Shown in pieces: positions 21,887-45,912 of a DNA stretch of 64,000 nucleotides. The stretch's first letter is position 1. Every line of letters starts with the position of its first letter. The notes under the pieces were generated by a model. It ran no database searches, was not told where the DNA came from, and saw only the letters and a program-made list of their open reading frames with translations. The position numbers and the translations under genes are program-made. The stretch covers positions 124,001 through 188,000 of the forward strand of contig NZ_PGGM01000012.1 in NCBI RefSeq assembly GCF_003010965.1, in the 5' to 3' direction. This DNA comes from Phyllobacterium sophorae (GTDB lineage: Bacteria > Pseudomonadota > Alphaproteobacteria > Rhizobiales > Rhizobiaceae).

Positions 21887-22372
21887 TTAATGACGACGGA
21901 TTTCGCCCCAGCCCACAAAAAGACCAACATCGCCGGGCATTCCATTTGGCCATTCTACGATCATCGCTGACATGCGATAACCGTCCGGCTTCATACGCTC
22001 GCGCCACAATTCGAATAATTGCCTTGGGACACCCGTTAGAGTTTCGGGCCAATCGGGCTCATTGTTGTTGATCGCACGACCCGTGTCGGTGCAAAGCTCG
22101 ACGGGGAACTGAAGGACCATCAGTTCGTTTTTTCCATCCTCGGCGGCTTGCCTTACCTGGGTTCTGAAGTTGACCCGCATGTCCTCGGTAATCGTTAAGG
22201 GTCTTGACAGTTTGTCCAGCAGTTTTTTTCGCGCATCCTCTGCGACCTTCATGCTGCCGTACGCCTTGGACGCACGCGCCATGTCAATTTTGTCCGCGTA
22301 TGCACGCAGTTCCTCGGCCGACATGAACAGATTGGCCTTCGAATCCGCCGCACTTGATCCGCTTTGCTTCAT
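21887..22372 (-). CDS. Conserved-looking hypothetical protein, cytoplasmic
   Basis: The ATG at 22372 is preferred to the GTG one codon earlier because the GGGAGGAG site is then five bases away. The 161-residue product has no signal peptide or membrane segment. Its first half is charged and helical (SAEELRAYADKIDMARASK, VAEDARKKLLDKLS), and the second half is richer in aromatic residues (VELCTDTGRAINNNEPDWPETLTG, YRMSAMIVEWPNGMPGDVG). I do not recognise a family. It lies upstream of, and divergent from, the polyphosphate kinase gene with about 170 bases between them, so they could share a regulatory region. Confidence 0.7.
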   Translation of the reverse strand: MKQSGSSAADSKANLFMSAEELRAYADKIDMARASKAYGSMKVAEDARKKLLDKLSRPLTITEDMRVNFRTQVRQAAEDGKNELMVLQFPVELCTDTGRAINNNEPDWPETLTGVPRQLFELWRERMKPDGYRMSAMIVEWPNGMPGDVGLFVGWGEIRRH

Positions 22373-33204: not shown

Positions 33205-35301
33205 TTACGCCAGTGAGCGCACCTTTGGTTCGCGATCCCAATAGCGCCGGGCTGCCGCCTCAACGAAGTTGTCGTCAATCAAGACAACGCCCTGGTCCGG
33301 TTCTATCCCTGCCTTGTCGAGGAGTTGCTTGGCTTCCGGCCCATATCCGATGGCTTTAAGGTGCCCGAAGGCATCCATCACCCATTGGACGGCAGCCCCT
33401 TCGTTGATCAGCGTCCTTGTGGCGCCTTGAGAAAGAAGGATGGCAATGGCATCGAACAATTGCGATGGTGAGCCCATCAGCTGGCCGTCAGCTTTTACGA
33501 TTGTGCCGTCCGCCAATTTCGCACCGCCAATTTTTGGAGCGACCAGAAACACCCTGGCACCGGCCGTTTGAATCGCTTTGGTCAGCTTGGCCAAAGCGGA
33601 AGCATCCGTGCCATCGGCAACCAGAATGCCAATGGTCCGTCCCTCGATCGTCGCTTTCATGTTGGTGTGAATACTCAGCGCAGGCGACGGTTCCATGTCG
33701 AAGGGTGCACGGGCAGCGGGCGCCTTTTGGGGAAGCGCAAGACCCAATCCAGCAGCAACACGTTTCGCCAGGTCTTCGTCGACATTTCGCAGATTGCCGA
33801 CCATTCGTGGCGGCACTTGCGCCAAACCTACCTTTGAAAGTTCGAACACGAATGATGACGCAATGTGGGCTTGCTCTGATGGCTGTTGCGAGCGCCAGAA
33901 CAGCCTTGCCTGGCTGTAGTGATCGGCAAATAGTTCGGCACGAACACGCAGCTTGTCGCCCTGTTCTTGCTGCTGTGAGCGTCCCTGGAATGTGCTGAAC
34001 CCGCTCACAGGGCATTCGCGTGGGCCACCTTCTTCATCGTGCCCAGCGAGACTGTTCGGCTCGTAATTGGCGCGCCCCATGGGCACGTTCATCTGCATTT
34101 GCCCATCCCGTTGAAAATTCATGACGGGACATTTGGGTGCGTTGATTGGCAATTGATGAAAGTTTGCAGTGCCAAGGCGGGATTTTTGCGTATCGAGATA
34201 ACTGAACAAGCGACCCTGGAGCAGGGGATCGTTGGAAAAATCGATGCCAGGGATGATGTTTGCCGGGCAATAGGCGGCTTGCTCGGTTTCTGCAAAGAAA
34301 TTGTCCGGGTTACGGTCAAGGACCATGCGACCGACAATGCGCACCGGAATGATCTCCTCGGGAATGATCTTGGTTGCGTCGAGAACATCATAGGGTTGTG
34401 CATCGGCGAAATCCTGGTCGAACAGCTGAAGACCGAGTTCCCACTCCGGGAAATTGCCGGATCGAATGGACTCCCAAAGATCACGCCTGTGATAGTCATT
34501 GTCGGCGGCCTGGAGTTTGAGCGCCTCGTCCCACACGGTCGATTGCAATCCGAGTTTGGGCTTCCAGTGGAATTTGACGAAGGTCGACTTTCCCTTCGCA
34601 TTCACAAGTATGAACGTATGAACGCCAAATCCTTCCATCGTACGGAACGAACGGGGAATGGTGCGATCCGACATGGCCCACATGAGCATGTGGGTGGTCT
34701 CCGGCATTAAAGATGCCCAATCCCAGAACGTATCATGGGCGCTGCCGGCCTGCGGGAAGGCTCTGTCGGCTTCCATCTTCACCGCATGGACGAGATCTGG
34801 AAACTTGATTGCGTCCTGGATGAAGAAAACTGGAATGTTATTGCCAACCAGGTCCCAGTTGCCTTCCTTGGTGTAAAACTTGACGGCGAACCCGCGCACA
34901 TCTCTGGGGGTATCGACCGATCCCGCACCACCGGCGACCGTTGAAAATCGCGTGAATACCGGGGTTTTTTCTCCCGGGCGCTGGAAGAGGTCGGCTTTTG
35001 TAATATCGGAAAGGGATTCGAAGAGTTCAAAGAAACCATGGGCCGCCGAGCCGCGCGCATGGACGATGCGTTCGGGAATGCGTTCATGGTCGAAATGAAA
35101 GATCTTCTCCCGAAGGACGAAGTCCTCAAGCAGTGTCGGGCCACGCTCGCCCGATCGTAGACTGTTCTGGTTGTCGCTGACGTGGAACCCCTGATTGGTT
35201 GTCAGGTGATTGGTCCCCGTGTGCGTTCCCTTTTCAGGGACATGCTGGTGCGTTTCGCCGCCGGTTCCCCGATCGGTGTCGAAAGTATTATCGGTAGCCA
35301 T
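33205..35301 (-). CDS. katE: Large-subunit catalase HPII type
   Basis: The ATG at 35301 has GAGGGCGG upstream and gives 698 residues, as in clade II catalases. Catalytic residues are visible: His81 (IVHARG), Asn154 (LVGNN), and the heme-ligand Tyr368 (RLFSYLDTQ). After the ~500-residue core, a flavodoxin-like domain (~560-698: [17 protein letters not shown]) typical of large subunits follows. It breaks hydrogen peroxide into water and oxygen in the cytoplasm. Directly upstream lies a perfect EcfG-type promoter (35335-35359), which predicts induction by general stress and starvation, consistent with katE regulation in related bacteria. Confidence 0.96.
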
Positions 35302-35334: not shown

Positions 35335-35359
35335 AACGAGGCGGGTGGGAGAAGGTTCC
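35335..35359 (-). promoter_or_regulatory. EcfG-type promoter of katE
   Basis: On the minus strand GGAAC (35359-35355) is followed after exactly 16 bases by CGTT (35338-35335), the full EcfG consensus. The -10 element ends 34 bases before the katE ATG. Similar matches occur six more times between 39 and 44 kb. Confidence 0.75.
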
Positions 35360-35394
35360 GGTTCTCTGCCAACACATGCCCGGCCAGGCAATTA

Positions 35395-35490
35395 TTTTGA
35401 CGTGGACAGGTTCAGTTCGTCTGGCCGTGTCTTCGAGCCCCCGTAAGGGACAACGTTCACCAGCTCATTTTGACGTAGACAGGTTCAGTT
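35395..35490. repeat. Two 23-base direct repeats upstream of katE
   Basis: Copies at 35395-35417 and 35468-35490 begin TTTTGACGT and end ACAGGTTCAGTT, differing at one base (G or A in the middle). Start-to-start distance is 73 bases. They lie 36-155 bases upstream of the EcfG promoter of katE. They could be regulator sites, or the ends of a lost insertion sequence. Confidence 0.6.
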
Positions 35491-35538
35491 TATTTGGTCG
35501 GTAAGTCGAGGCGGCTCAGTGAGAGAATGAAACGATTG

Positions 35539-35832
35539 TCAGCGTCCCCCAACCCCTTGGTTCTTCAGGTTGCGCTGCCATGCCGGCAGGGGTCGAGAAT
35601 ACTTGAGCGTACCGTATCTGGGATTGCGCATTTCGACGGTGCCATTAGCAAGAACCCGATAGGTAATTCCCGACCTGGTTGTGGCAACATCTCCCGGTTT
35701 GCCTTCTCCATTCAAGAATTTGGCGAGAACGCCAGATGTGGCATCTGGGGCAACGTATTGAGCTTGGGCAGATGCTGACATCGACATGGCCGCCCATGCG
35801 CCTACTGTTGCAGATATCCAATTCCGTTTCAT
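35539..35832 (-). CDS. Small secreted protein of unknown function
   Basis: From ATG 35832 the product is 97 residues with a signal peptide (ISATVGAWAAMSMSASAQA). The mature part reads like a peptidase-propeptide- or RcnB-like short domain: GVLAKFLNGEGKPGDVATT, then GITYRVLANGTVEMRN. It has no Cys, so it is probably a periplasmic or surface protein. An AAGG site precedes the start weakly. I do not recognise the family. It reads toward katE, with the direct repeats in between. Confidence 0.6.
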   Translation of the reverse strand: MKRNWISATVGAWAAMSMSASAQAQYVAPDATSGVLAKFLNGEGKPGDVATTRSGITYRVLANGTVEMRNPRYGTLKYSRPLPAWQRNLKNQGVGGR

Positions 35833-36624
35833 CGAAATGGCCTTCCAGTCTGATTGGTGGGTACACGGCATTGCCGGAACCTAATGTAGTCAGCGCGTTG
35901 AGCTTTTCTATATTTGCAGGGCAAATAGGTTGCATGCATTGACACGTCGCTTGTCAGCTCCGGCGCAACGGCGGCGGTCGCCACCGTTACCCATAAATTG
36001 GCATCCAGGATCAGCTCTTACCTGCTCTGGGCTGCGGCGACTACCAAGCCTCTGGATATTCCTGTTCCAGCGAGGCTCATCAGTCCTGTCCTTGCGATCG
36101 GGCGGCTTGTCTTAATCAGCATTTGACCGATGCGGCTGAGGCGGCTTGCGCCGGGACATGGAAGCATCCGAGCGCCGAGCTGCGCATGGGCGCGCTGGCG
36201 TCGGTATCGGCGGCACTGCGCTATGTGTCAGTATCGCCAACTCGTTCGAATGGTTTGCCAAGCTCTTCCACTGGTGAGGCTTGGCCTCATTGCGTCATGG
36301 AGGAATACATGCGGCCAAGCCTCTGCTGTGAGCGTCAACCCAGTCCGAGTCCCAGAGAGGATAAAAGTCGGGCCATTTCTGAACCCGTAAAATGTCCTCG
36401 AGGTCTTGCCAACAGTCAAATCACATTCCTGCCCGCTCGCGCTTTTTGCATTCCCAACGCACCAACTTGAGGCTGCTGATCAACGGCTCGCAATCACATC
36501 GTTGTCACAACCATCCTCGGGCTTTTGCGCTATAGTGTGGCTGCAACAGGATCGGACTTTCGGCTCGCCATTCCGTGCAGGCTGGGCTGGGTGCCGAAAG
36601 TTGCCTTGTTGGAGGAAACCACGT
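35833..36624. other. Intergenic stretch without a supported gene
   Basis: About 790 bases. Several frames of 60-115 codons exist on both strands, but all look like random frames in GC-rich DNA (Arg/Ser/Pro rich, no ribosome site). The last 40 bases hold the ribosome site of the Met-rich gene. Confidence 0.4.
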
Positions 36625-36897
36625 TTGTCCAGTTCATTGAAATTCCTTGGGATATCGGCCGCGATTGTGACGGGGCTGGCCCTCGCATCACCGATCGCTG
36701 CTGCCGAGGACAATCAGTCCCCCGGATCAAACATGGGATCTGGGATGATGGAGCACGGCGGCATGATGAACATGATGCAGCAGATGAGCCAGATGATGGA
36801 TAGCTGCAATACGATGATGCAACGCACTCCCGACCCCGGAAAGTCGATTGAGCAGCCTCCCAGGAACATGCCGATGCATCCCGAGAAGAAGGGGTGA
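36625..36897 (+). CDS. Methionine-rich small secreted protein
   Basis: A TTG start at 36625 lies eight bases after GGAGGA and opens a signal peptide (FLGISAAIVTGLALASPIAAA). The 90-residue protein then has a Met/His-rich core: GSGMMEHGGMMNMMQQ, MSQMMDSC and TMMQ, and a C-terminal MPMHPEKKG. Met clusters of this type bind Cu(I) or Ag(I) in periplasmic copper proteins. The stop overlaps the next gene start by one base (TGATG), a sign of translational coupling with a DUF411 protein. A copper role is inferred from composition and neighbour. The longer frame to 36406 is likely untranslated. Confidence 0.65.
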   Translation: MSSSLKFLGISAAIVTGLALASPIAAAEDNQSPGSNMGSGMMEHGGMMNMMQQMSQMMDSCNTMMQRTPDPGKSIEQPPRNMPMHPEKKG

Positions 36898-37373
36898 TGA
36901 AAATGATGAAAAGGCGTGAATTTATATGCACGGGCATGGCGGCGATCGCCGTGACGCTGATCGCCAAAAAGGCAGGCGCGGAGCAGCGTTGGTCGATGAC
37001 CGTTTATAAGGATCCCAACTGCGGATGCTGTAACCTCTGGTCCAAGGCCATGGAAAATGCTGGGTTCAGGGTCGAGCGGGTGGATACTGACGATTTGCCA
37101 GCCATCAAAAAACGCTTTGGCGTGCCCGCTGCAGTCGAGGGCTGCCACACGGCGATAATAGGCGGCTATTTCCTTGATGGCCATGTGCCGCTCGAAATGG
37201 TTAAAAAGCTATTGTCCGAAAGACCTGACATTGCCGGACTGGCGGTGCCTGGCATGCCCGTAGGTTCGCTGGGAATGGATTTCGATCCGAATGCCAGCTA
37301 CGATGTCTACGCCGTAGCCAAAGGGGCAGAGCAAAAGACATCAGTTTATTTCAAGGTCAGACCCAAGAATTGA
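36897..37373 (+). CDS. DUF411 metal-binding protein
   Basis: A 158-residue protein of the DUF411 family (PF04214, similar to CopG in copper/silver clusters). It has a Tat/Sec-type start (KRREFICTGMAAIAVTLIA) and the family motifs YKDPNCGCCNLW near residue 40 and VEGCHTAIIGGYFLDGHVP near residue 80, with Cys and His that could bind Cu(I). The later SLGMDFDPNASYDVYAV block is also typical. It is expected in the periplasm or envelope. It is coupled to the Met-rich gene upstream, so both probably act in copper tolerance. The ATG at 37906 is not part of it; the coupled ATG at 36897 is used. Confidence 0.85.
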   Translation: MKMMKRREFICTGMAAIAVTLIAKKAGAEQRWSMTVYKDPNCGCCNLWSKAMENAGFRVERVDTDDLPAIKKRFGVPAAVEGCHTAIIGGYFLDGHVPLEMVKKLLSERPDIAGLAVPGMPVGSLGMDFDPNASYDVYAVAKGAEQKTSVYFKVRPKN

Positions 37374-37394
37374 TCGGCGGTGTCATTCAGAACG

Positions 37395-37976
37395 TCAATC
37401 TAATCCCCCGAAAATAGCTGCGTAGTGGTACGGCGGCAGTTCCTGTACTCGAATGGTTTGAAACCCGGTAGGCTCAACGACAGCTTGGAGCGCTTCTGGC
37501 GACATTCGCAGGTCCGATTTGGATCCTCGCGGTTGGTTGAGCACTATTGTCAGTTCCCGCGGAAGGGCGTGCCAATTGACAACCCCAAACAAGCCATTCG
37601 GTCGGATCATGGCCCGAATGGCTTCCATTAACCCGGATTGGTCCGGCACACCGTGAAACGTGTTCGCCATAAGAACATAATCAACGGATTCGGTGATATG
37701 CTGTGGGGCATCTCGCGCATCGGCACAGATCCATTTTAGGACGGAGGTGTGCAGTCGTGCCACTTCCGCCTTGGCCAGTTCGATCATTAACGGATCGAGA
37801 TCGAGCGCATACACGTTTCCGACGAGTTTCGCGAGGGGAGCGGTGAAATAGCCGTCGCCACAGCATAGATCGAGCACGCTCATCTCGGGGATTACGCCAG
37901 GGCTTTGCACCACGTCACGTGGATCGGGCCACCTTAGTCCAAGGACTCGTCCAGTCGAAACAGGCTGGGTTCGCAT
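37395..37976 (-). CDS. Class I SAM-dependent methyltransferase
   Basis: The 193-residue protein shows the class I Rossmann motifs: VLDLCCGDGYFTAPLA (motif I, near residue 35), VYALDLDPLMIELAK (motif II, acidic residue that binds the ribose), ICADARDAP, and VDYVLMANTFHGV (motif IV). The C-terminal part (ALQAVVEPTGFQTIRVQELPP) is the usual post-motif region of small-molecule methyltransferases. The substrate is unknown. The gene converges with the DUF411 gene and is 33 bases from the cupin gene on the same strand, so methyltransferase and cupin may be co-transcribed. Confidence 0.87.
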   Translation of the reverse strand: MRTQPVSTGRVLGLRWPDPRDVVQSPGVIPEMSVLDLCCGDGYFTAPLAKLVGNVYALDLDPLMIELAKAEVARLHTSVLKWICADARDAPQHITESVDYVLMANTFHGVPDQSGLMEAIRAMIRPNGLFGVVNWHALPRELTIVLNQPRGSKSDLRMSPEALQAVVEPTGFQTIRVQELPPYHYAAIFGGLD

Positions 37977-38009
37977 TTCACGAGCCCAGCCGGAGAAACG
38001 CTAACTCGC

Positions 38010-38438
38010 TCAAGCAGGGATCAGAATGCCTATCGTATGAATCCCAACCCCGTTGCCTGTGTTTGTGGCCCCGTCCGTCTTGCCTTTGGCGCAAGCGTAC
38101 ATCTCGCCTTCTTTTACTTTGAATTCCCGATCTGGCTTCTTGATCGTGAACTCGCCCGCAGTGATGTAGCACAGCATGTCATTGTCCATCATGGTTTCCG
38201 GGGCCACCGCGCCGGGCTGAAACACGATATCGACCATGTCGATGCTCTTGTAGGCGGGGATGTCTGATTTAAATGTGCCCAACTTCACCAGTCTGACACC
38301 CGGGGCAATCTCCTCGCCATCGTTTTTGCCGTATTCTTTGGTCTTGGACAACGCTGGACTTGCGAATGTGAGCAGGGGTGTTGCGGCGGTCGCCGCCAGA
38401 CCGAGTGCCAATGCCGATCGACGGTTCATGTCTATCAT
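38010..38438 (-). CDS. Secreted cupin-domain protein
   Basis: The 142-residue protein has a Tat-like leader (NRRSALALGLAATAATPLLTFA, cleaved near SPALS) and a small beta-barrel cupin domain with EGEMYACAKGKTDGATN. One conserved His/Glu cluster is partial, so metal binding is uncertain. It might be a periplasmic cupin with a stress role. The GGGAGGAAGCC site supports the ATG at 38438. It is the first gene of a possible two-gene unit with the methyltransferase. Confidence 0.75.
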   Translation of the reverse strand: MIDMNRRSALALGLAATAATPLLTFASPALSKTKEYGKNDGEEIAPGVRLVKLGTFKSDIPAYKSIDMVDIVFQPGAVAPETMMDNDMLCYITAGEFTIKKPDREFKVKEGEMYACAKGKTDGATNTGNGVGIHTIGILIPA

Positions 38439-38973
38439 GGCTTCCTCCCATATCTATGATGCAGGATGCACCGAAGAGAGGAGTCCATACCCCGCGAAGC
38501 GATGTGTCAAAACAATTTAGCAGCCCGCAAGCATGGGCCGGTCCGTCGGAGCAACGAGATTCCGATGCGTGAGGCTTGGACTTCTAAACAGCTCGTGGTC
38601 AAAAAGAGGTCTGGCAACTGTGTGAAGCAAAGTCGGATCCCCAGCCTGTTGCTGAGCTCGCGCCTCGTCCGACTGTCGGTGCAGGCAACGGTTGCAATCG
38701 GAGACGATCGACCGATCGCTGAAGGAGGCCCAAAAAGTCTGCGCTTTTTTCCTCTGGGGAGGATCGGCGCGAGACTCCCGGGACCAGCGCGGGGCGGAGG
38801 AGAGTCAAGCATCGGATCCTGCTGGAATAGTGTTCCTTGACTATGGATTCCACAATTAGTTTTTTGGCCCAGCGCTAGGTGGCCCGGGCTTTTTGTGTTG
38901 ACGGCTCTAAACGAGTGCAGTGATCGCCGGTTGCGGAGCGCCCCGCAACCGCTTCGATGGTATAGCCGATTGG
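38439..38973. other. Intergenic stretch without a supported gene
   Basis: About 535 bases between the cupin gene and the DUF1236 gene. No convincing frame. A GC-rich segment with TTTTT near 38886-38895 (GCCC-loop-GGGC) may be a weak terminator. Confidence 0.4.
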
Positions 38974-39282
38974 TTATCTTTCGATGATGTGCACGACCTT
39001 GCGGGTCTGGGGGTCGATCAGCACGGTGCGACCGTCCATTTCGACGTACTGATACCTGGTCGGGACTGTATTTTCGGCAAGTTCGCCCGGTTTAAATATA
39101 TCCGGTATGATCGCCCCGAGTACCAGTTCAAAGTTGGACGGACGTTGGACGACGACGGGCTTGGTTTTCACATATTCGCGGATTACAGTTTCCTGCTCGG
39201 GCGTGACCACAACAGTCTGGGCAACCGCGACAGCGGTTCCAGCAAAAAGGATGGTAGCGGCAATCGTGCTTCGGAAAGTCAT
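38974..39282 (-). CDS. DUF1236 secreted protein
   Basis: The 102-residue protein has a signal peptide (FRSTIAATILFAGTAVAVA) and the DUF1236 pattern: VVTPEQETVIREYV, KPVVVQRPSNFELVLGAIIP, VPTRYQYVEMDGRTVLIDPQTRKVVHII. DUF1236 proteins are common in Hyphomicrobiales and sit in the periplasm; no enzymatic role is known, but several are induced by stress. An EcfG-type promoter lies 32-56 bases upstream, which agrees with that pattern. It is monocistronic. Confidence 0.88.
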   Translation of the reverse strand: MTFRSTIAATILFAGTAVAVAQTVVVTPEQETVIREYVKTKPVVVQRPSNFELVLGAIIPDIFKPGELAENTVPTRYQYVEMDGRTVLIDPQTRKVVHIIER

Positions 39283-39313
39283 ATCGGCCTCCTATTGTTT
39301 ATCGTCATTGTAC

Positions 39314-39338
39314 AACCGCTGTCGGGCGAAAGGGTTCC
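39314..39338 (-). promoter_or_regulatory. EcfG-type promoter of the DUF1236 gene
   Basis: GGAAC (39338-39334, minus strand) is separated by 17 bases from GTT (39316-39314); with the preceding base the -10 reads GGTT. This places the transcription start about 25 bases before the DUF1236 ATG. Confidence 0.65.
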
Positions 39339-39471
39339 GAAATCGCAAGCAGTTCCTATTGATGTGGTGACATTACTTCGCCTAAGCCTTGGATATAAAA
39401 CTGAAATTCATGGCTCTCGATAGAGAAAGGCTTGTCTTTGTATACAGCCGTATCGTTGATGAGATAATTTC

Positions 39472-39506
39472 GCCCGGCGCCGTTCAATCGGTCACCGGGC
39501 TTTTTT
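39472..39506 (+). terminator. Rho-independent terminator
   Basis: GCCCGGCGCCG, a loop TTCAAT and CGGTCACCGGGC form a hairpin, directly followed by six T. The plus-strand orientation fits only a short frame at 39389-39480 that I cannot confirm as a gene, so what it terminates is unclear. Confidence 0.6.
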
Positions 39507-39579
39507 GTGATTTCGTGGAAGAGTTTTCGCGACCTTCGATCCCTGGCCAAGGGATAGCACTTGCCCACCTCTGCAGCTT

Positions 39580-39703
39580 TCCGGGTCGGCGGCGAGCATG
39601 GCGTGGTGTCGACATGGTATACCAGCCTCCCTCGCAGACTCGATAGGGTAACGCGAGCAACCGCAATCTGCGACCGCGCAAAAAAACGGCGTGCTTGTGG
39701 CAC
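39580..39703 (-). pseudogene. DUF982 remnant, fragment 1
   Basis: On the minus strand a short frame reads CSRYPIESAREAGI, the C-terminal signature of DUF982 proteins (ARxAFIEAAREAGI). The start and middle are missing and the frame breaks after CRHH. It shares the following VDTTP-like DNA with the remnant at 39943, so the two derive from one ancestor. Confidence 0.45.
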
Positions 39704-39942
39704 ACCGTCTAATTTTCGAGTCCTGAATTTACGGGGGCGGAAATCAGGAGCTCAGCTGACCTGGAATTCAGCAGTGAATCAACCAACCAAGACCGATTTC
39801 GTTCCGTCTTTGTACGCTTCCGCACATAAGTGAGAGCTTCAGGGAGAGGGAACAGCGGCCAGGCCTCATGTCAGGGGATGATTGTCTGACTTGATAAGTC
39901 TCGAACCGTGCCCGCCCACAGTCAAATCACATTCCGACCGGT

Positions 39943-40175
39943 TTAAGATCGACGTCCCGGCTTGCTCTTGTGCCAGCGCTCCAGCTTTCCGATCGCGGGA
40001 GGCCGTGGCGTGGTATCGACATGGATACCGGCTTCCTCGCAGCCTCCACAAATGCCACCCGAGCAACAGCAGCCGGACATTCGCCAGCCAGGCACATCAC
40101 GAAAATTCCTTGGAGTTTGTCAGCTTCGGCCCGCGTCATCTGGCCAGTGATCCAATATGTATTTGGCTGCGTCAT
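39943..40175 (-). pseudogene. DUF982 family gene with a frameshift
   Basis: A frame from ATG 40175 gives MTQPNTYWITGQMTRAEADK, then GECPAAVARVAFVEAA, and shifts by one base near 40022 to EEAGIHVDTTPRPPAIGKLE, ending at 39943. The block AAVARVAFVEAA+EEAGI is DUF982. Joined length is about 77 residues. It has no strong ribosome site and is probably inactive. Confidence 0.45.
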
Positions 40176-40329
40176 AAGCGCAATCAATAGCAACGGCCTT
40201 ACTGCCCTGCAGCACTGAGACCATCTTAACGGTTTATAATCTTCCATCGCCAAGAAACGGTAGCAGAATGCGTCAGTTCGGGCATTAGACCCTTAGAACT
40301 GGTCAACCATCGCACAAAATTGAAGGTCG

Positions 40330-40596
40330 CTAAGATTTCGCTTCGGAGGCCAAGGAATCCTGGCGCAGCAAAGTGATTCCCAACAATACCGTTTCCTCGT
40401 TGACCGCCCTCGACGCCATGATGTTTTCATCACGCACACCCTGATCGAACAGCCTCATAACTGTTCGGGCAAGACGGTCAGCGTTTTCATGGGTCTTTGG
40501 ACAGCGATGAAGCATCTCAGATGCCGTGGTATGGGCACGCTGCATGAGGTCCCAATCTTCAGTCGAATAAGCATTTTCGGGTGATCTACGGAGCAT
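40330..40596 (-). CDS. Unknown small protein, paralogue A
   Basis: The ATG at 40596 has GGGAGGA five bases upstream. The 88-residue protein has DWDLMQRAHTTASEMLHRC and ADRLARTVMRLFDQGVRDEN, which align with the protein at 41155-41541. It is helical, without Cys pairs or membrane segments. The 5' leader, including GGCGGGAGC and CCATCTCTCAA on the plus strand, is also shared with the paralogue. I do not recognise a family. Helical repeats with LART-x-M-x-LF might mediate protein contacts; that is only a guess from composition. Confidence 0.7.
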   Translation of the reverse strand: MLRRSPENAYSTEDWDLMQRAHTTASEMLHRCPKTHENADRLARTVMRLFDQGVRDENIMASRAVNEETVLLGITLLRQDSLASEAKS

Positions 40597-40763
40597 AACG
40601 ATCCTCCCATCGCATAAGGCGGGAGCACGTTCCATCTCTCAAACGCCAGCGGCCGTTACATGCCTGGCGACTTTGGCATTGTCTGCCAGTGGACGATATA
40701 AGTCAATTGAACGGCAATAGCGCAATGGATTCCGGGGTTTGCAAGCAGTCGCTCCCTAGCGGT

Positions 40764-40788
40764 GGAACCGATATTGTGTGCTGACGTT
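40764..40788 (+). promoter_or_regulatory. EcfG-type promoter before the DUF982 gene
   Basis: GGAAC (40764-40768), 16 bases, CGTT (40785-40788): a full consensus match. It overlaps the first codons of the long reading frame (GTG 40762), so translation should begin after about 40795. Confidence 0.72.
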
Positions 40789-40796
40789 TCAAAGGA

Positions 40797-41055
40797 TGGA
40801 GTTCATTTATTTTCCCCGGTCAAATTGGTGACCGGAGACCGAAACAAGTTGCGAATCGTAAGTTCTGTCCAGGACGCGTGGAAGTTACTTGCAGAGGAAT
40901 GGCCGCCGGGTGAAACAACCCTACGTCATAAAGCCCTGACTATTTGCGCCCTTGCCCTTCGAGGGAAGGCTGGCGCGGACGTTGCCCGGGAGGTTTTGAT
41001 TGTAGCGGCAAAGAAGCGGGCATATTCGCATCGGCCATGTAATGCCAATTGCTAG
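40797..41055 (+). CDS. DUF982 domain protein, start region possibly frameshifted
   Basis: The domain is clear: FSPVKLVTGDRN, VSSVQDAWKLLAEEWPPGE, KALTICALALRGKAGADVAREVLIVAA, the DUF982 layout (PF06169) with a central WP and an AR...AA end. DUF982 proteins are small and of unknown function, frequent in rhizobia. The EcfG promoter at 40764-40788 excludes the GTG at 40762 as start. The best ribosome-site-bearing ATG is 40797 (AAGGATGGAG context, MEFIYF), but it is in a different frame; the two join across a TTTTCCCC tract near 40810. Either an indel sits there or a weak in-frame start is used. Coordinates begin at that ATG. Confidence 0.6.
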
Positions 41056-41154
41056 TTTGCCAACAGGGAACCAACGCCATTGGACCCGGTTGCGAAACAG
41101 CGCAGCGAGAGTGACTATTTTATAGAGGCAGCCGGGATGCATCAGTCGCCCACA

Positions 41155-41541
41155 TTACGTGAATTCAGCCTCCAACTCGCTCCATCTGGCAAGAACCCGT
41201 GCGCATGATTTACACTGTATGAGGGTGTGGTTCTGCACGTTATAAGGCCTACGCAGATAGAACGTTCCGCACGTTGGGCACTCCAGTTTGCGCATCAGAT
41301 TGTCTGGCATCTCAATGACGCGTTGATAGATGGTTTCGCGATGCGCTGCGAGCGATGCAATTATCTGGTAATCGCGTGTGCCTTTATTGAAGAGGCTCAT
41401 TATTGTTCGCGCCAGACGATCCTTATGTTCATAATAAGCCGGATGCAGACCGAGGATTTCGCACGCCTTGATGTGAGCGTCCTCCATGACATGCCAGTCG
41501 TCTTCGCTGTAGGTGAGTTTGTCGGAAAGATTCTGGATCAT
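41155..41541 (-). CDS. Unknown protein with zinc ribbon, paralogue B
   Basis: From the ATG at 41541, behind GGAGGAGG, the product is 128 residues. The first ~85 residues match paralogue A (DWHVMEDAHIKACEILG, KDRLARTIMSLFNKGTRD), and the rest adds a zinc ribbon: LECPTCGTFYLRRPY and LIQCKSCARVLARW. Two CxxC pairs are 20 residues apart. Paralogue A lacks this module, so one protein gained or lost it. The two leaders are alike, so they may be regulated in the same way. Function is unknown. Confidence 0.72.
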   Translation of the reverse strand: MIQNLSDKLTYSEDDWHVMEDAHIKACEILGLHPAYYEHKDRLARTIMSLFNKGTRDYQIIASLAAHRETIYQRVIEMPDNLMRKLECPTCGTFYLRRPYNVQNHTLIQCKSCARVLARWSELEAEFT

Positions 41542-41674
41542 CTTGGCTCCTCCTCCACCAATGGCGGGAGCCCGTACCATCTCTCAAGCGCCGGTTCGCC
41601 ATTAGCAGGCCCAGCGACCGAGATATTAAGAACCTCATCTTAGATTTCGTCAATGGACGGTCGGATCCGCAGAT

Positions 41675-41699
41675 GGAACCAAGTGGATCTGGCAGGGTT
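41675..41699 (+). promoter_or_regulatory. EcfG-type promoter of the 58-residue gene
   Basis: GGAAC (41675-41679), 17 bases, GTT (41697-41699), reading GGTT with the preceding base. The ATG of the small gene is 24 bases downstream. Confidence 0.65.
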
Positions 41700-41722
41700 T
41701 GAGGTGTCTAGGGACGCGCTCG

Positions 41723-41899
41723 ATGATGGACGATGAAAAGAAACAAAATCACGTACAGCAGGTTGTTCGAAGGCAATTAAGTCAGGACGACATGAGAGAG
41801 GCGTTTCGCAGCCAGTACAATGTTCGCGCGCCTAACGATCGATTCAAGAAATTGCTGGAGCGACTGGAGCAGGCGGAGATCGACCAAGCGCAGCGCTAG
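41723..41899 (+). CDS. Small charged protein, copy 1
   Basis: A 58-residue protein starting MMDDEKKQ, with VQQVVRRQLSQDDM, REAFRSQYN and FKKLLERLEQAEIDQA. It is helical, highly charged, and has no Cys, signal or membrane segment. A near copy lies at 45739-45912. This copy has an EcfG promoter 24 bases upstream; the other does not. A GGGA site lies about nine bases before the ATG. A short alpha-helical stress protein is likely; the partner is unknown. Confidence 0.7.
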   Translation: MMDDEKKQNHVQQVVRRQLSQDDMREAFRSQYNVRAPNDRFKKLLERLEQAEIDQAQR

Positions 41900-42202
41900 C
41901 ACTCAGCATCCCGCAACTAAGTTTGCTCCGGCTCAACGCTACGGCGACTGAGGCGAAAATGCGGTCTTGAAGGCTTGGGCTGCAAAGACAAGGCCAGCTT
42001 TGGAACACCCTCTGCACATAGCGGACGAACTGGATAACTAGTCGGCAACGCTGGAAAGCAGCTTCCACGGCGAAGATGCGCACCCGAGCGCGGCACCTCT
42101 GAGTGCTGCGTGGTGCCCCCTAACTTCACAATGGATCGACCGAATAGTCAAAGGCGACCGTCCGTTCACATTCTTGAGGATCGCCGTGCGATGAACAATT
42201 GC
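41900..42202. other. Intergenic stretch without a supported gene
   Basis: About 300 bases between the small gene and the next EcfG promoter. The frames here are short and GC-driven. Confidence 0.4.
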
Positions 42203-42227
42203 GGAACTAAAGCCGTGCACGAAGGTT
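42203..42227 (+). promoter_or_regulatory. EcfG-type promoter before a broken gene
   Basis: GGAAC (42203-42207), 17 bases, GTT (42225-42227), reading GGTT with the preceding base. The ATG of the next frame is at 42257. Confidence 0.62.
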
Positions 42228-42256
42228 GATTTACAAATAGTGGAGGGCGGCCTCTC

Positions 42257-42639
42257 ATGAGGATCATTGAAAGACGTAATAGTGCACGAGAAGACGGTGG
42301 CGGACACATCGTTGAGTTTGTCTACGAGGATGGAAAATTGTTCTCTCTGGTGCGGATTCTGTCGGCCTTGGCCAAGACGAGCTTATTCGGAAGGCAGAGC
42401 GCTTGCTTGACCAAATAGACGCTAGCGAGGCGCGAGGGGATATGCCTCCGTATGGCATCGGGGACGGACCGAATTCGCTGGGTGAGCAAACGGCCAGGGC
42501 GAAATCCTTGGGGACAGATTCCTCGAATACTCCGGATCAGCCGGAGGGGCCGGTTCCCCCGAAAAACCCGCTCCTGGACGAGCAAGATGAGAACGCCGAC
42601 ATTGTCGGGCTCAAGGGCGAAGGCCTTATTGAGCCTTAG
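42257..42639 (+). pseudogene. Stress-type hypothetical protein with one frameshift
   Basis: An ATG at 42257 after GGAGGGCGG opens MRIIERRNSAREDGGGHIVEFVYEDGKLF (shown as ends only: MRIIERRN, HIVEFVYEDGKLF), then the frame degrades. A frame offset by one base continues with SVGLGQDELIRKAERLLDQ and runs to 42639, with Pro/Glu-rich sequence NTPDQPEGPVPPKN. The two parts look like one protein of about 127 residues broken near 42330-42360. It carries its own EcfG promoter, so it was probably part of the stress regulon. Family not recognised. Confidence 0.45.
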
Positions 42640-42884
42640 GGGCAAGTTTGGCGGGGAGCAGTGTCATACGTTGGTGCAAATTAGGCAATGGATGCGCGTA
42701 AGTCGGCGCTTCCAAAAGCCTTCAGTGTCTCAAAACGCGATAATATGCTCCTTCATCGAAACCCCCATCCATTTGGGCTTGGATTAATCTGGCTCGGAGG
42801 CGCATACACGCCTATTAAGCACTTGCATCACTGCCTCCTTGTGGAGAGAGACGTGCCCACCCTGTAGGATGAGCACGAACAATG

Positions 42885-43385
42885 TTAAGCTGCCATTTCC
42901 TGGGCTTTTCTATTGATACCCCCTTCGGCCAGTTTGGTAAGTGCCCGATCCGTGGCAATCTCTTCTTCGAGGGTTTGAAGAAGAAGCGCCATCGCGTCTT
43001 TCAGTCCAAGCTCCGCTGCCCAGCGAGCCAACGTGCCATAGCGGGCGATTTCATAGTGCTCCACAGCCTGCGCCGATGAAACCAAACCGGCGTCTAAAGC
43101 CGGCTCGCCTTTGAATTCATCCAGAACTTCCTCGCCCTCGGCAATAATTCCTTCAATCGCATCGCATGTTTTTCCCTGGGCGCGCTTGCCGAAGATTTCA
43201 AAGACCTGTTGCAGGCGCTCGACATGCATTTCGGTTTCATCGCGGTGTTTTTCGAAGGCTGCCCTCAACTCGGAAGAAGCTGCCCCTTTAGCCATCTTCG
43301 GCAATGATTTCAGAATCTTGCGCTCGGCGTAGTAAACATCCTTCAGCGTCTCGTGGAACAATTTTTCCAATGTCTTTTCGACCAT
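42885..43385 (-). CDS. YciE/YciF-type ferritin-like protein (PF05974)
   Basis: The ATG at 43385 has GGAGGA seven bases before it; the longer upstream frame is discarded. The 166-residue protein has the DUF892 four-helix bundle: LEKLFHETLKDVYYAERKIL, KALPKM-like helix, HRDETEMHVERLQQVFEIFG, and VEHYEIARYGTLARWAAELG. Glu and His in these helices are those that bind a di-iron site in ferritin-like proteins. Members are widespread stress proteins without a proven reaction. An EcfG-type promoter (43435-43459) lies 50 bases upstream, matching regulation in other rhizobia. Confidence 0.92.
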   Translation of the reverse strand: MVEKTLEKLFHETLKDVYYAERKILKSLPKMAKGAASSELRAAFEKHRDETEMHVERLQQVFEIFGKRAQGKTCDAIEGIIAEGEEVLDEFKGEPALDAGLVSSAQAVEHYEIARYGTLARWAAELGLKDAMALLLQTLEEEIATDRALTKLAEGGINRKAQEMAA

Positions 43386-43434
43386 AATACGTTCCTCCAT
43401 AAATCCCGGCCACTTGTGTGACGAGTGCGAAAAG

Positions 43435-43459
43435 AACGAACCTTCATGGCGAATGTTCC
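43435..43459 (-). promoter_or_regulatory. EcfG-type promoter of the ferritin-like gene
   Basis: On the minus strand GGAAC (43459-43455), 16 bases, CGTT (43438-43435): full consensus. Confidence 0.75.
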
Positions 43460-43627
43460 CCGACCCTAGAGAAAAAGAACTTTGCGCTTGGGCGGTCAGC
43501 GGGATGCGAAACGTGAAGCAAGTAGACGAGACTGACCAGTCCACGGATGCCGAATGGCGAGTAATGTCCCGATCCTCGCAAGCCGCGTGGATGGCAGACA
43601 CCTCAGCACAAAAAACATTTCCGGCGG

Positions 43628-43652
43628 GGAACAAGAGGGGTTGGTCGTGGTT
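43628..43652 (+). promoter_or_regulatory. EcfG-type promoter of the DUF883-like operon
   Basis: GGAAC (43628-43632), 17 bases, GTT (43650-43652), reading GGTT with the preceding base. The operon start codon is 61 bases downstream. The opposite promoter (43435-43459) is divergent, so both face away from one 170-base region. Confidence 0.65.
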
Positions 43653-43713: not shown

Positions 43714-44261
43714 ATGCAGGACCATTCGAAAAATCCGTCTAAATCCAGCCCCACGGCAGATCACCCCGCCGCGCTGTCTGGGACCATTGAAACGAAGACG
43801 AGCTTTGAGGAGCTCAAGCGCAAAGCGGCTGACGACGTTGGAACGGTAAAAGAAAAGCAAAGGCACAGGTGCGTGATGCAGCTGGCAAGGCCGAAGAAAT
43901 TGCATCGAAGCAAAAGAATATCGCCGCCCGTTATGCGGGCTCGATAGGCTCTGCCTTGGAAAAGGTGGGTTCCGAAATGCAGGGAGCCGATGATGCGGCC
44001 ATAGGGAAGTACGCGAAGGAGCTGGGTTCCACAATCCAATCGTTCGCCAAAGATGTCGAGGACCGTAAGCTCAGCGATGTCGCAGGTATGGCCGAAGACT
44101 TTGGCCGCAAACAGCCGCTGGCATTTCTTGGCCTCGCCGCATTGGCCGGATTGGTGGCCAGTCGGGTCCTTACAGCGTCCGCTGATAGGCGCGCTCCTGC
44201 CGCGTCGAGTCCGGGCTCGACGCAAGACGGCTCCAACACGCAAAGGGAAGGACAACGCTGA
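43714..44261 (+). CDS. DUF883/ElaB-like membrane-associated protein, frame change at an A-rich site
   Basis: The ATG at 43714 follows GGGAGACC. The frame reads FEELKRKAADDVGTVKEK, then a second frame (-1) continues AKAQVRDAAGKAEEI through a long amphipathic helix to one C-terminal membrane segment (FLGLAALAGLVASRVL). The shift falls in GTAAAAGAAAAGCAAAG near 43850. This is either an indel or a programmed -1 frameshift; the site is not the classical X XXY YYZ form, so an indel is more likely. The layout resembles ElaB/YqjD, ribosome-linked inner membrane proteins of stationary phase. It is the first gene of an operon with a holin-like and a DUF3618 protein. Confidence 0.6.
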
Positions 44262-44680
44262 TGTCCGATTTTAATCAAAACAAACCACTCCCCGAGTTGA
44301 TCGGGGGTCTGCTTACCGATGTGACGGGATTGGTCCGGAAGGAACTTGAACTTGCCAAGACCGAAGCTTCAGAAAGTTTATCGCGGGCTCTTGGTGGCAT
44401 TGAGTTTTTAGCCATCGGCCTGGTTTTCGCGATAGGTGCGCTCGGAGTGCTGTTGAGTGCCCTGGTAGCCGGGCTGGCTGCGTTCTTGATATCGCAGGGA
44501 TTCACTCAATCTGCAGGAAATGGCCTATCGGCCCTTATAGTCGCTCTCTTGGTGGGTATTACCGCTTGGGTCATGATTTCCAAGGGGATAACTGCGCTTC
44601 GGGCAAACAATTGGACATTCGAGCGCACCGCAGCCTCCATCGGCCGCGACGCCGAAGTGGTAAAGGAGAAAACGTCATGA
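44261..44680 (+). CDS. Phage-holin-like stress membrane protein (PF07332)
   Basis: A 139-residue protein with an N-terminal amphipathic segment (LIGGLLTDVTGLVRKELELAKTEA) and two membrane helices (FLAIGLVFAIGALGVLLSALVAGL-region and GLSALIVALLVGITAWVMI). This is the Phage_holin_3_6 / YqjE-like family. Its ATG overlaps the upstream stop by one base (TGATG), so translation is coupled. The family is common next to DUF883- and DUF3618-type genes and is thought to shape or protect the inner membrane in stationary phase. It is probably not a lytic holin. Confidence 0.82.
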   Translation: MSDFNQNKPLPELIGGLLTDVTGLVRKELELAKTEASESLSRALGGIEFLAIGLVFAIGALGVLLSALVAGLAAFLISQGFTQSAGNGLSALIVALLVGITAWVMISKGITALRANNWTFERTAASIGRDAEVVKEKTS

Positions 44681-45669
44681 CATCATCTTCTGAAAGACAA
44701 AGCGCGGCCGAAATTCAACGCGATATTGAGGATGACCGCCGAAGGATTGAAGAGAGTATAGACGTCATTCAGGAACGGATGTCCCCAGGCCAGTTAATCG
44801 ACGAAGTTCTCGGGTACCTGAAGAGCAGTGGGGGAGGCGCGTACGTCGCCAACCTTGGTAACGCGGTTAAGAACGATCCAATACCTGTCGCACTGATGGG
44901 AGTAAGTTTGGCTTGGCTCATGGCGGGGACGGGTACTGGCCGAGTTGACGACGGCAAATCGATCAGTTCATTCGACAAACGGCCTGAGCATCCTCTGGCG
45001 ACAGTCGATGGAGACATCCGTTGGATGGGTCCCGCACTGGATGAGGGGGACGCACAATACATGCACTTTGCCGACAGTGCCGGCAATCGTTTCAGAGCCT
45101 TGACCAACAATGCGGGCAAACGTGCAGGCCCGTTCCTGGACGACAGCGGCAAATCCTATCGGGGATTTGCAGATGCCGCTGGCAACCGCATTGAAGCCAT
45201 CAAAGACCAAGCGGGTGCCATATGGGATGATGCATCGGACTGGCTCTCTGACACGTATCAGCAGGTCAGCGATGCGGCGGCCGGAGTGGCGGACCGTGTA
45301 AGCAGCCAGGCCCGGTCTGTTGGAGACACCTCCGCTTCTGCGGGAGCCGCGATACGGGACCAGACAAAAAGGCTTAACGAAACGATCCTCACGCACTTTC
45401 GCGACCAACCCCTGGTTGGGGGTGCACTTGCCTTTGCAGTCGGTGCTGCGATTGGGGCGGCCCTGCCTCACACGGCGGCCGAGGATGCCGCCGTCGGAGA
45501 AGCAGCGCAAAACCTAAGGGATCGTGTTTCCGAAAAGGCGGAAGAAATTATCGACAAGGGCAAAGCCGCAGCATCTGACATTTATGAGCAGACCGTCGAT
45601 GTTGCAGATGATGTTTACGATGCGGCCCTCGATCGGATCAAGGATTCCGGCAACGCTGGTCAGTCGTAG
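44677..45669 (+). CDS. DUF3618 protein with internal repeats
   Basis: The ATG at 44677 overlaps the previous stop (ATGA). The 330-residue protein begins with the DUF3618 helix (AEIQRDIEDDRRRIEESIDVI, RMSPGQLIDEVLGYL), then has a membrane-like segment (VALMGVSLAWLMAG). A middle part repeats a 10-15 residue unit (DSAGNRFRALTNNAGKRAG, DAAGNRIEAIKDQAG), and a second membrane segment (GGALAFAVGAAIGAALP) precedes a helical tail. It is likely an inner membrane protein with a periplasmic or cytoplasmic repeat arm. Third gene of the stress operon driven from 43628. Confidence 0.85.
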   Translation: MTSSSERQSAAEIQRDIEDDRRRIEESIDVIQERMSPGQLIDEVLGYLKSSGGGAYVANLGNAVKNDPIPVALMGVSLAWLMAGTGTGRVDDGKSISSFDKRPEHPLATVDGDIRWMGPALDEGDAQYMHFADSAGNRFRALTNNAGKRAGPFLDDSGKSYRGFADAAGNRIEAIKDQAGAIWDDASDWLSDTYQQVSDAAAGVADRVSSQARSVGDTSASAGAAIRDQTKRLNETILTHFRDQPLVGGALAFAVGAAIGAALPHTAAEDAAVGEAAQNLRDRVSEKAEEIIDKGKAAASDIYEQTVDVADDVYDAALDRIKDSGNAGQS

Positions 45670-45738: not shown

Positions 45739-45912
45739 ATGATGGACGATGAAATGAAACGAAATCACCTACAGCAGGTTGTTCGAAGGCAATTAAGTCA
45801 GGACGACATGACAGAGGCATTTCGCAGGCAGTACAATGTTTTCGCGCCTGACGATCGCTTCAAGAAATTGCTCGAGCAACTGGAGCAGGCGGAGAAAGCC
45901 CGAAAGGCCTAA
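45739..45912 (+). CDS. Small charged protein, copy 2
   Basis: A 57-residue protein nearly identical to the copy at 41723-41899: MMDDEMKRNHLQQVVRRQLS, AFRRQYNVFAP, RFKKLLEQLEQ. The DNA similarity extends about 20 bases upstream (AGGGACGCGCTCG) but stops before the EcfG promoter of copy 1, so this copy may be expressed from the DUF3618 operon 70 bases upstream or be silent. It lacks recognisable domains. Confidence 0.6.
   Translation: MMDDEMKRNHLQQVVRRQLSQDDMTEAFRRQYNVFAPDDRFKKLLEQLEQAEKARKA

Follow-up and report, generated by a model that had tools for sequence, protein, structure and literature searches.

The question raised by this locus is whether a run of EcfG-type promoter sites (GGAAC-N17-GTT) within 8.3 kb of Phyllobacterium sophorae DNA marks genes under the PhyR-NepR-EcfG general stress switch, and what those genes encode. 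The window, meaning the whole stretch of DNA analysed (64,000 nucleotides, nt; C3:124001-188000), comes from a draft genome of 6.35 Mb in 49 contigs. Our comparisons establish that the sites cluster, that they are conserved ahead of the same gene families, and that a 58-residue protein of the locus is akin to NepR. As far as sequence can tell, the locus is likely a mosaic island of general-stress genes together with stress-induced, NepR-like feedback brakes.

Concentration of EcfG-type sites in the island

We found that the island is the densest cluster of EcfG-type sites among those listed for the genome. An earlier sequence-only reading had named seven such sites, and all seven are in place on the strands it had assigned. 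Each has GGAAC, a spacer of 16 or 17, and CGTT or GTT, and the three described as having the CGTT form do so (35335, 40764 and 43435). All seven are correctly oriented, as had been claimed. The distance to the gene starts, put at 24-80 bases, is instead 7 nt (DUF982) to 61 nt (DUF883-like), measured between the final T of the site and the promoter-proximal ATG. Two further exact sites within the 8.3 kb, 39781-39805 (-) and 41067-41091 (+), were absent from that reading. It had also reported no sites before those genes of the left 35 kb that it inspected by eye; two exact matches exist in this part, at 22105 (+) and 29110 (+), antisense to or inside long open reading frames (ORFs). The features of the island, with expect values (E) from Pfam searches, are:

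33205..35301, minus strand: katE, long catalase, 698 amino acids from the ATG; Catalase, E 6.9e-177; frame open
35335..35359, minus strand: EcfG-type site, CGTT form; katE ATG 33 nt downstream; the A18/5-2 copy (L010 22304-22328) has three changes in the spacer region
38974..39282, minus strand: DUF1236 gene, 102 amino acids; PF06823, E 9.6e-10; frame open
39314..39338, minus strand: EcfG-type site; DUF1236 ATG 31 nt downstream; identical in A18/5-2
39686..39773, minus strand: candidate small RNA, about 90 nt; predicted fold ending in an 11-pair hairpin, then a T run
39781..39805, minus strand: EcfG-type site, exact match; conserved in A18/5-2
40764..40788, plus strand: EcfG-type site, CGTT form; an ATG 7 nt downstream
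40796..41055, plus strand: DUF982 gene; PF06169, E 8e-16; domain in another frame than the promoter-proximal ATG
41067..41091, plus strand: EcfG-type site, no evident gene behind it
41675..41699, plus strand: EcfG-type site; NepR-like ATG 23 nt downstream
41723..41899, plus strand: NepR-like microprotein copy 1, 58 amino acids; PF18557, E 0.0053, below cut-off; frame open
42203..42227, plus strand: EcfG-type site; an ATG 29 nt downstream
42257..42639, plus strand: hypothetical gene; frame broken after 53 codons
42885..43385, minus strand: DUF892 (YciF-like) gene, 166 amino acids; PF05974, E 3.1e-60; frame open
43435..43459, minus strand: EcfG-type site, CGTT form; DUF892 ATG 49 nt downstream
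43628..43652, plus strand: EcfG-type site; first operon ATG 61 nt downstream
43714..45669, plus strand: operon of a DUF883-like gene, a Phage_holin_3_6-like membrane protein (44261-44680) and a DUF3618 protein (44677-45669)
45739..45912, plus strand: NepR-like microprotein copy 2, 57 amino acids; PF18557, E 0.0015, below cut-off; without a site of its own; frame open

The label DUF883-like is that of the sequence-only reading; a Pfam search of this copy gave no match. That reading did not recognise the NepR likeness of the 58-residue protein, its copy at 45739 or the probable small RNA.

The whole window contained 11 exact GGAAC-N17-GTT matches. In 100 dinucleotide-preserving shuffles of the window the mean was 1.77 (standard deviation 1.38, maximum 7). 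We scanned the genome in 8318-bp stretches using 179 of the 185 C/G-GTT sites (100 of 106 and all of a further 79). Among the sites listed, the densest stretch was this island, with 9 sites, and the second-densest separate stretch was the phyR-nepR-ecfG locus, with 6. When sites were placed at random (2000 trials), the maximum was 5 per stretch. The same density everywhere, an outcome that the sequence-only reading had set against its own claim, was therefore not what we saw genome-wide. The katE, DUF1236 and 39781 (-) sites are conserved in Phyllobacterium sp. A18/5-2. Six more exact sites lie ahead of small ORFs at G000:C33:222000-236000 (L013), a possible further stress-gene cluster.

NepR-like genes across Phyllobacterium

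We found NepR-like matches (E 0.01 or better) in 20/20 Phyllobacterium genomes, 2-10 per genome and 80 in total. Within 200 nt upstream, 57 of these 80 genes had a GGAAC-N16..18-GTT site, with a spacer of 17 in 39 cases, 18 in 17 and 16 in one. Other spacings from 8 to 27 were each found at no more than 2 genes. The figure of 57/80 is inflated by related sequences; the non-redundant count is 24/38 with a site.

One core NepR-like orthologue was present in all 20 genomes, with a site in 19. In a search of the named collection it was found at 17 loci (15 Phyllobacterium, 2 Rhizobiales bacterium), 16 of them with a site; a scan of the named collection with the four closest NepR-like copies found no relative. 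In three further copies in the P. sophorae genome itself (C33:467 kb, C33:623 kb and C45:219 kb), the start lies 23-31 nt downstream of an exact site. Another (C45:297 kb) has only a GAAAC-N17-GTT variant, and matches on C8 and C2 are remnant-like. A NepR-like match with E 0.25 that lies within a long ORF (C45:16426) is not included in this count of the genome's own copies.

A core NepR-like subfamily that is nearer to NepR is without GGAAC and has GAAAC-N17-GTT or GAAAC-N18-GTT approximately 80-130 nt upstream. The GAAAC variant occurs in seven relatives and in the C45:297 kb copy (L106, L107, L111, L120, L125, L126, L133, L136).

Relationship of the 58-residue protein to NepR

On the comparisons that follow, the 58-residue family is related to NepR and is not a member of Pfam's NepR family. 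We aligned 26 of the 38 non-redundant NepR-like proteins and the two window copies, leaving out 12 remnant, over-long, near-duplicate or weak proteins. The canonical NepR alignment held 14 of 22 sequences (near-duplicates excluded, one trimmed). Profile-profile comparison of the two (hhalign) gave a probability of 95.9 and E 5.1e-9, spanning both helices. Individually, 14 of the 28 NepR-like members hit PF18557 (best 3.9e-5). The best PDB match of the NepR-like profile was a NepR chain, 2lfw_B (E 0.0069).

In the reverse search, the NepR-like profile found the genome's own canonical NepR (E 6.5e-6) and matched 30 of 121 genomes of the bacterial family, 28 of them outside the genus. Sorted by eye, 24 of the 28 outside-genus loci are canonical-looking NepRs, 6 of which have an extracytoplasmic function (ECF) sigma gene just behind them (crude motif check). 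The remaining four (G061, G092, G097 and G022) are NepR-like, with an exact site upstream of each. Residues L32 and Y36 matter for the function of Sphingomonas melonis NepR and NepR2 (PMC6599016). The L32 place is hydrophobic in 28/28 aligned NepR-like members and the Y36 place has Y or F in half of them, the window copies having F and Y there.

These results bear on the alternative that survives best, which is that the island is an ordinary EcfG regulon cluster and the 58-residue proteins are effectors under EcfG control that have two amphipathic helices and no regulatory role, their likeness to NepR being a short-helix similarity. Such a likeness would fit the Pfam scores of the window copies (16.8 and 18.5 bits, below the curated cut-off of 25.7). 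It would also fit the next PDB matches, bacterial DNA ligases (E 0.028) close behind the best NepR chain, with other NepR chains at E 0.15 and 0.23. A structure model (helices 2-32 and 39-57) is of low confidence (mean predicted local distance difference test score, pLDDT, 70; predicted template modelling score, pTM, 0.34), which also counts for the effector explanation, and does not discriminate. Against it stand the profile-profile match over both helices, the retrieval of the genome's own canonical NepR and of canonical-looking ones outside the genus, and the invariably hydrophobic L32 place. We consider the effector explanation unlikely.

The core switch and the sigma factor

We found the core switch elsewhere in the genome. 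There is one NepR above cut-off (1.8e-14), immediately beside an ECF sigma gene. The PhyR gene, with both PhyR sigma-like domains and the receiver domain, is divergent from this nepR-ECF sigma pair and lies 75 nt behind its own GGAAC-N17-GTT. At the same locus, sites also precede a CsbD gene, a DUF883 gene and an HWE histidine kinase gene. The earlier proposal of a PhyR/NepR/EcfG regulon cluster is supported by these core switch genes, the site density, the conserved sites and the site-bearing families.

The sites might be used by an ECF sigma factor other than EcfG. AAC is found in the -35 element recognised by many ECF factors, and the genome contains 11 matches to sigma-70 region 2. However, the same motif clusters around phyR-nepR-ecfG itself and is also the one listed for S. 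melonis EcfG-dependent genes (PMC6599016), so that we regard another sigma factor as quite improbable. Least probable, and refuted as far as sequence allows, is chance, or one promoter spread by local duplication: the two NepR-like copies are indeed duplicates (80% identical), but the spacers of the seven sites differ, which rules out a single copied promoter, the shuffles and random placement fall short of the count, which rules out chance or composition, and sites are conserved in A18/5-2.

Proposed mechanism and points against it

Our results are most consistent with an island that would carry both protective genes and brakes on their expression. That EcfG uses the sites, what the NepR-like proteins bind, and the sign of the feedback are points that we infer by analogy with described systems. 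Under stress, PhyR would release EcfG from NepR, and the freed EcfG would start transcription at the island sites. The protective products would be catalase, the DUF892/YciF-like protein, DUF1236 and the membrane proteins of the operon at 43.7 kb; simultaneously, EcfG would yield the NepR-like microprotein from 41723. Copy 2 (45739) would probably be expressed by read-through, which is possible because it starts 69 nt behind the operon led by the 43628 site. The NepR-like microproteins would most likely provide delayed negative feedback, dampening or ending the response, either by mimicking NepR and competing for PhyR or by binding EcfG. META2_0735 of Methylobacterium extorquens, a negative regulator linked to EcfG, is stress-induced and binds PhyR, and its overexpression lowers resistance (PMC4814048). 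By parallel with META2_0735 and NepR2, the island would supply protective functions and, at the same time, the means to switch them off.

Several observations weigh against this interpretation. Genome-wide, the 286 matches to GGAAC-N17-GTT are fewer than those to a reversed control pattern (398). A single match is therefore weak evidence, and we rejected the genome-wide count as proof. Opposite-strand sites occur in 11 of the 80 NepR-like upstream stretches, above the off-spacing level. Some of the signal therefore derives from neighbouring genes in divergent orientation, likely stress genes themselves. Copy 2 has no upstream site. Members of the NepR-like family fall below the Pfam NepR cut-off, most have a linker between the helices three residues shorter than that of NepR, and Y or F occupies the Y36 place in only 14 of the 28 that were aligned.

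Broken frames also count against it. Frames from the promoter-proximal ATG are broken in 3 of 7 genes, stopping after 11 codons (DUF982), 53 (the 42257 gene) and 77 (DUF883-like); those of katE, DUF1236, DUF892 and both NepR-like genes are open. The sequence-only reading had rightly called the 42257 gene broken, and the other two are additional to it. A by-eye reading of an intact DUF982 start was ruled out, since the ATG frame ends so early. Judged from its frames, this copy of the island is partly decayed, with assembly error as the alternative.

Companion genes

We found DUF982 in 19/19 genus genomes searched, with 3 to 23 matches each among the matches listed. A sample of 60 copies was picked by hand (about every third row without a locus, ten more such rows, and ten of the genome's own copies). 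A site was present in 30 of the 60, with a spacer of 17 in 22 and 18 in 8, and an opposite-strand site in one. Among the 30 best-scoring DUF982 loci, only 6 had a site (spacers 17 and 18 together). An off-spacing of 27 was commoner there (9/30), at loci that we take to be orthologous copies.

Transcription by ECF factors usually begins about 6-8 nt downstream of the -10 element. An in-frame ATG lies 7-10 nt behind the site in 29 of the 30 sampled DUF982 copies with a site (loci L201-L260; 40764-40798 in the window). DUF982 mRNAs should therefore be leaderless; no Shine-Dalgarno sequence was visible by eye in these copies. In Sinorhizobium meliloti, 171 leaderless mRNAs are reported (PMC3616915). 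Outside the genus the leaderless rule was not evident: only 9 of 28 DUF982 loci had a site, at varied distances from the start (one of 29 loci was skipped, its upstream sequence missing).

DUF892 genes had a site at 28 of 30 loci, which are part of the listed matches. The trio of DUF982, DUF1236 and NepR-like genes recurs at C33:621.6-623.5 kb with a site before each, as in the window. A DUF982 match lies within 2.5 kb of 5 of the genome's 8 own NepR-like loci, remnants included. In another genome (G002; L056, C76:28296) a 148-residue ORF encodes a NepR-like segment and, after it, a DUF982 domain. Because DUF982 travels with NepR-like genes, has predicted leaderless EcfG transcripts and shares this ORF, it is a possible partner of PhyR-NepR-EcfG. 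We tentatively suggest that the brake may have been multiplied in the genus, with 2-10 NepR-like proteins per genome mostly started by the sigma factor that they would restrain, that leaderless DUF982 may be a further partner of the switch, and that the copies could differ in the threshold or the timing at which they let the cell leave the stress state. This extension is a good deal less certain than the island itself.

Candidate small RNA and setting of the island

The site at 39781 is predicted to drive a stress-induced small RNA, the candidate at 39686-39773 (-). Its 88 nt are 97.7% identical in A18/5-2 and were found in no other fetched locus. An Rfam search of the candidate gave no family, and a simple terminator scan did not list its hairpin. 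A small nucleolar RNA identity was rejected (14.4 bits, far under the gathering score of 45).

The nearest named record found, a plasmid of 1.59 Mb (NZ_CP104967.1), belongs to Phyllobacterium sp. A18/5-2. It is approximately 95% identical to the window at 27.6-37.9 kb and 46.3-48.6 kb. At approximately 40-46 kb the match is poorer or absent, and this segment is variable between the two genomes. By comparison with A18/5-2, C3 is probably part of an accessory replicon. The G+C content is 54.5-55.0% at 35.3-46.3 kb vs 57.9% in the left 27.5 kb.

Two alike small genes of no known family, 40330-40635 (-) and 41155-41580 (-), lie on either side of the DUF982 gene, and the second may end in a zinc ribbon. 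By eye, the stretches 39540-39640 and 39950-40170 (-) resemble remnants of DUF982 C-termini, which suggests turnover of the DUF982 family in the island.

Comparison with known systems

Negative feedback in the general stress response is described as little known in PMC4814048. If the brake has been multiplied and placed under the control of the response that it limits, dosage and timing could be tested in this genus. The promoters would also link the Phyllobacterium DUF982 and DUF892 genes to the general stress response, and they predict a family of leaderless stress mRNAs and one stress-induced small RNA. Our literature search, which read a minority of the papers that it turned up and had subscription journals mostly outside its reach, found no paper on NepR expansion in Phyllobacterium and no link between DUF982 and the EcfG response; DUF982 turned up only in a domain table, and NepR together with Phyllobacterium only in an unrelated review.

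One close likeness is to NepR2 of S. melonis Fr1, a small, EcfG-regulated protein with NepR-like residues in the C-terminal part that binds PhyR and acts in negative feedback (PMC6599016). Like NepR2, the NepR-like proteins of the island are small and NepR-related, and copy 1 is encoded behind an EcfG-type site. Unlike NepR2, a single gene beside ecfG, those of Phyllobacterium are several dispersed copies in mosaic stress islands, mostly with a shorter linker. M. extorquens has three NepR paralogues in one strain, two of them with putative EcfG promoters (PMC4814048); the 20 Phyllobacterium genomes searched have 2-10 matches apiece. Both NepRs of S. meliloti bind RpoE2 and both PhyRs (PMC4814048).

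In S. meliloti and S. melonis, the regulons of EcfG (RpoE2) have promoters of this form and include many small hypothetical genes (PMC3616915, PMC6599016). Small RNAs are among the S. meliloti targets (PMC3616915), as the candidate would be here. Unlike those regulons, as far as they are described in the available text, the Phyllobacterium locus is a dense island in which NepR-like, DUF982, DUF1236 and DUF892 genes recur.

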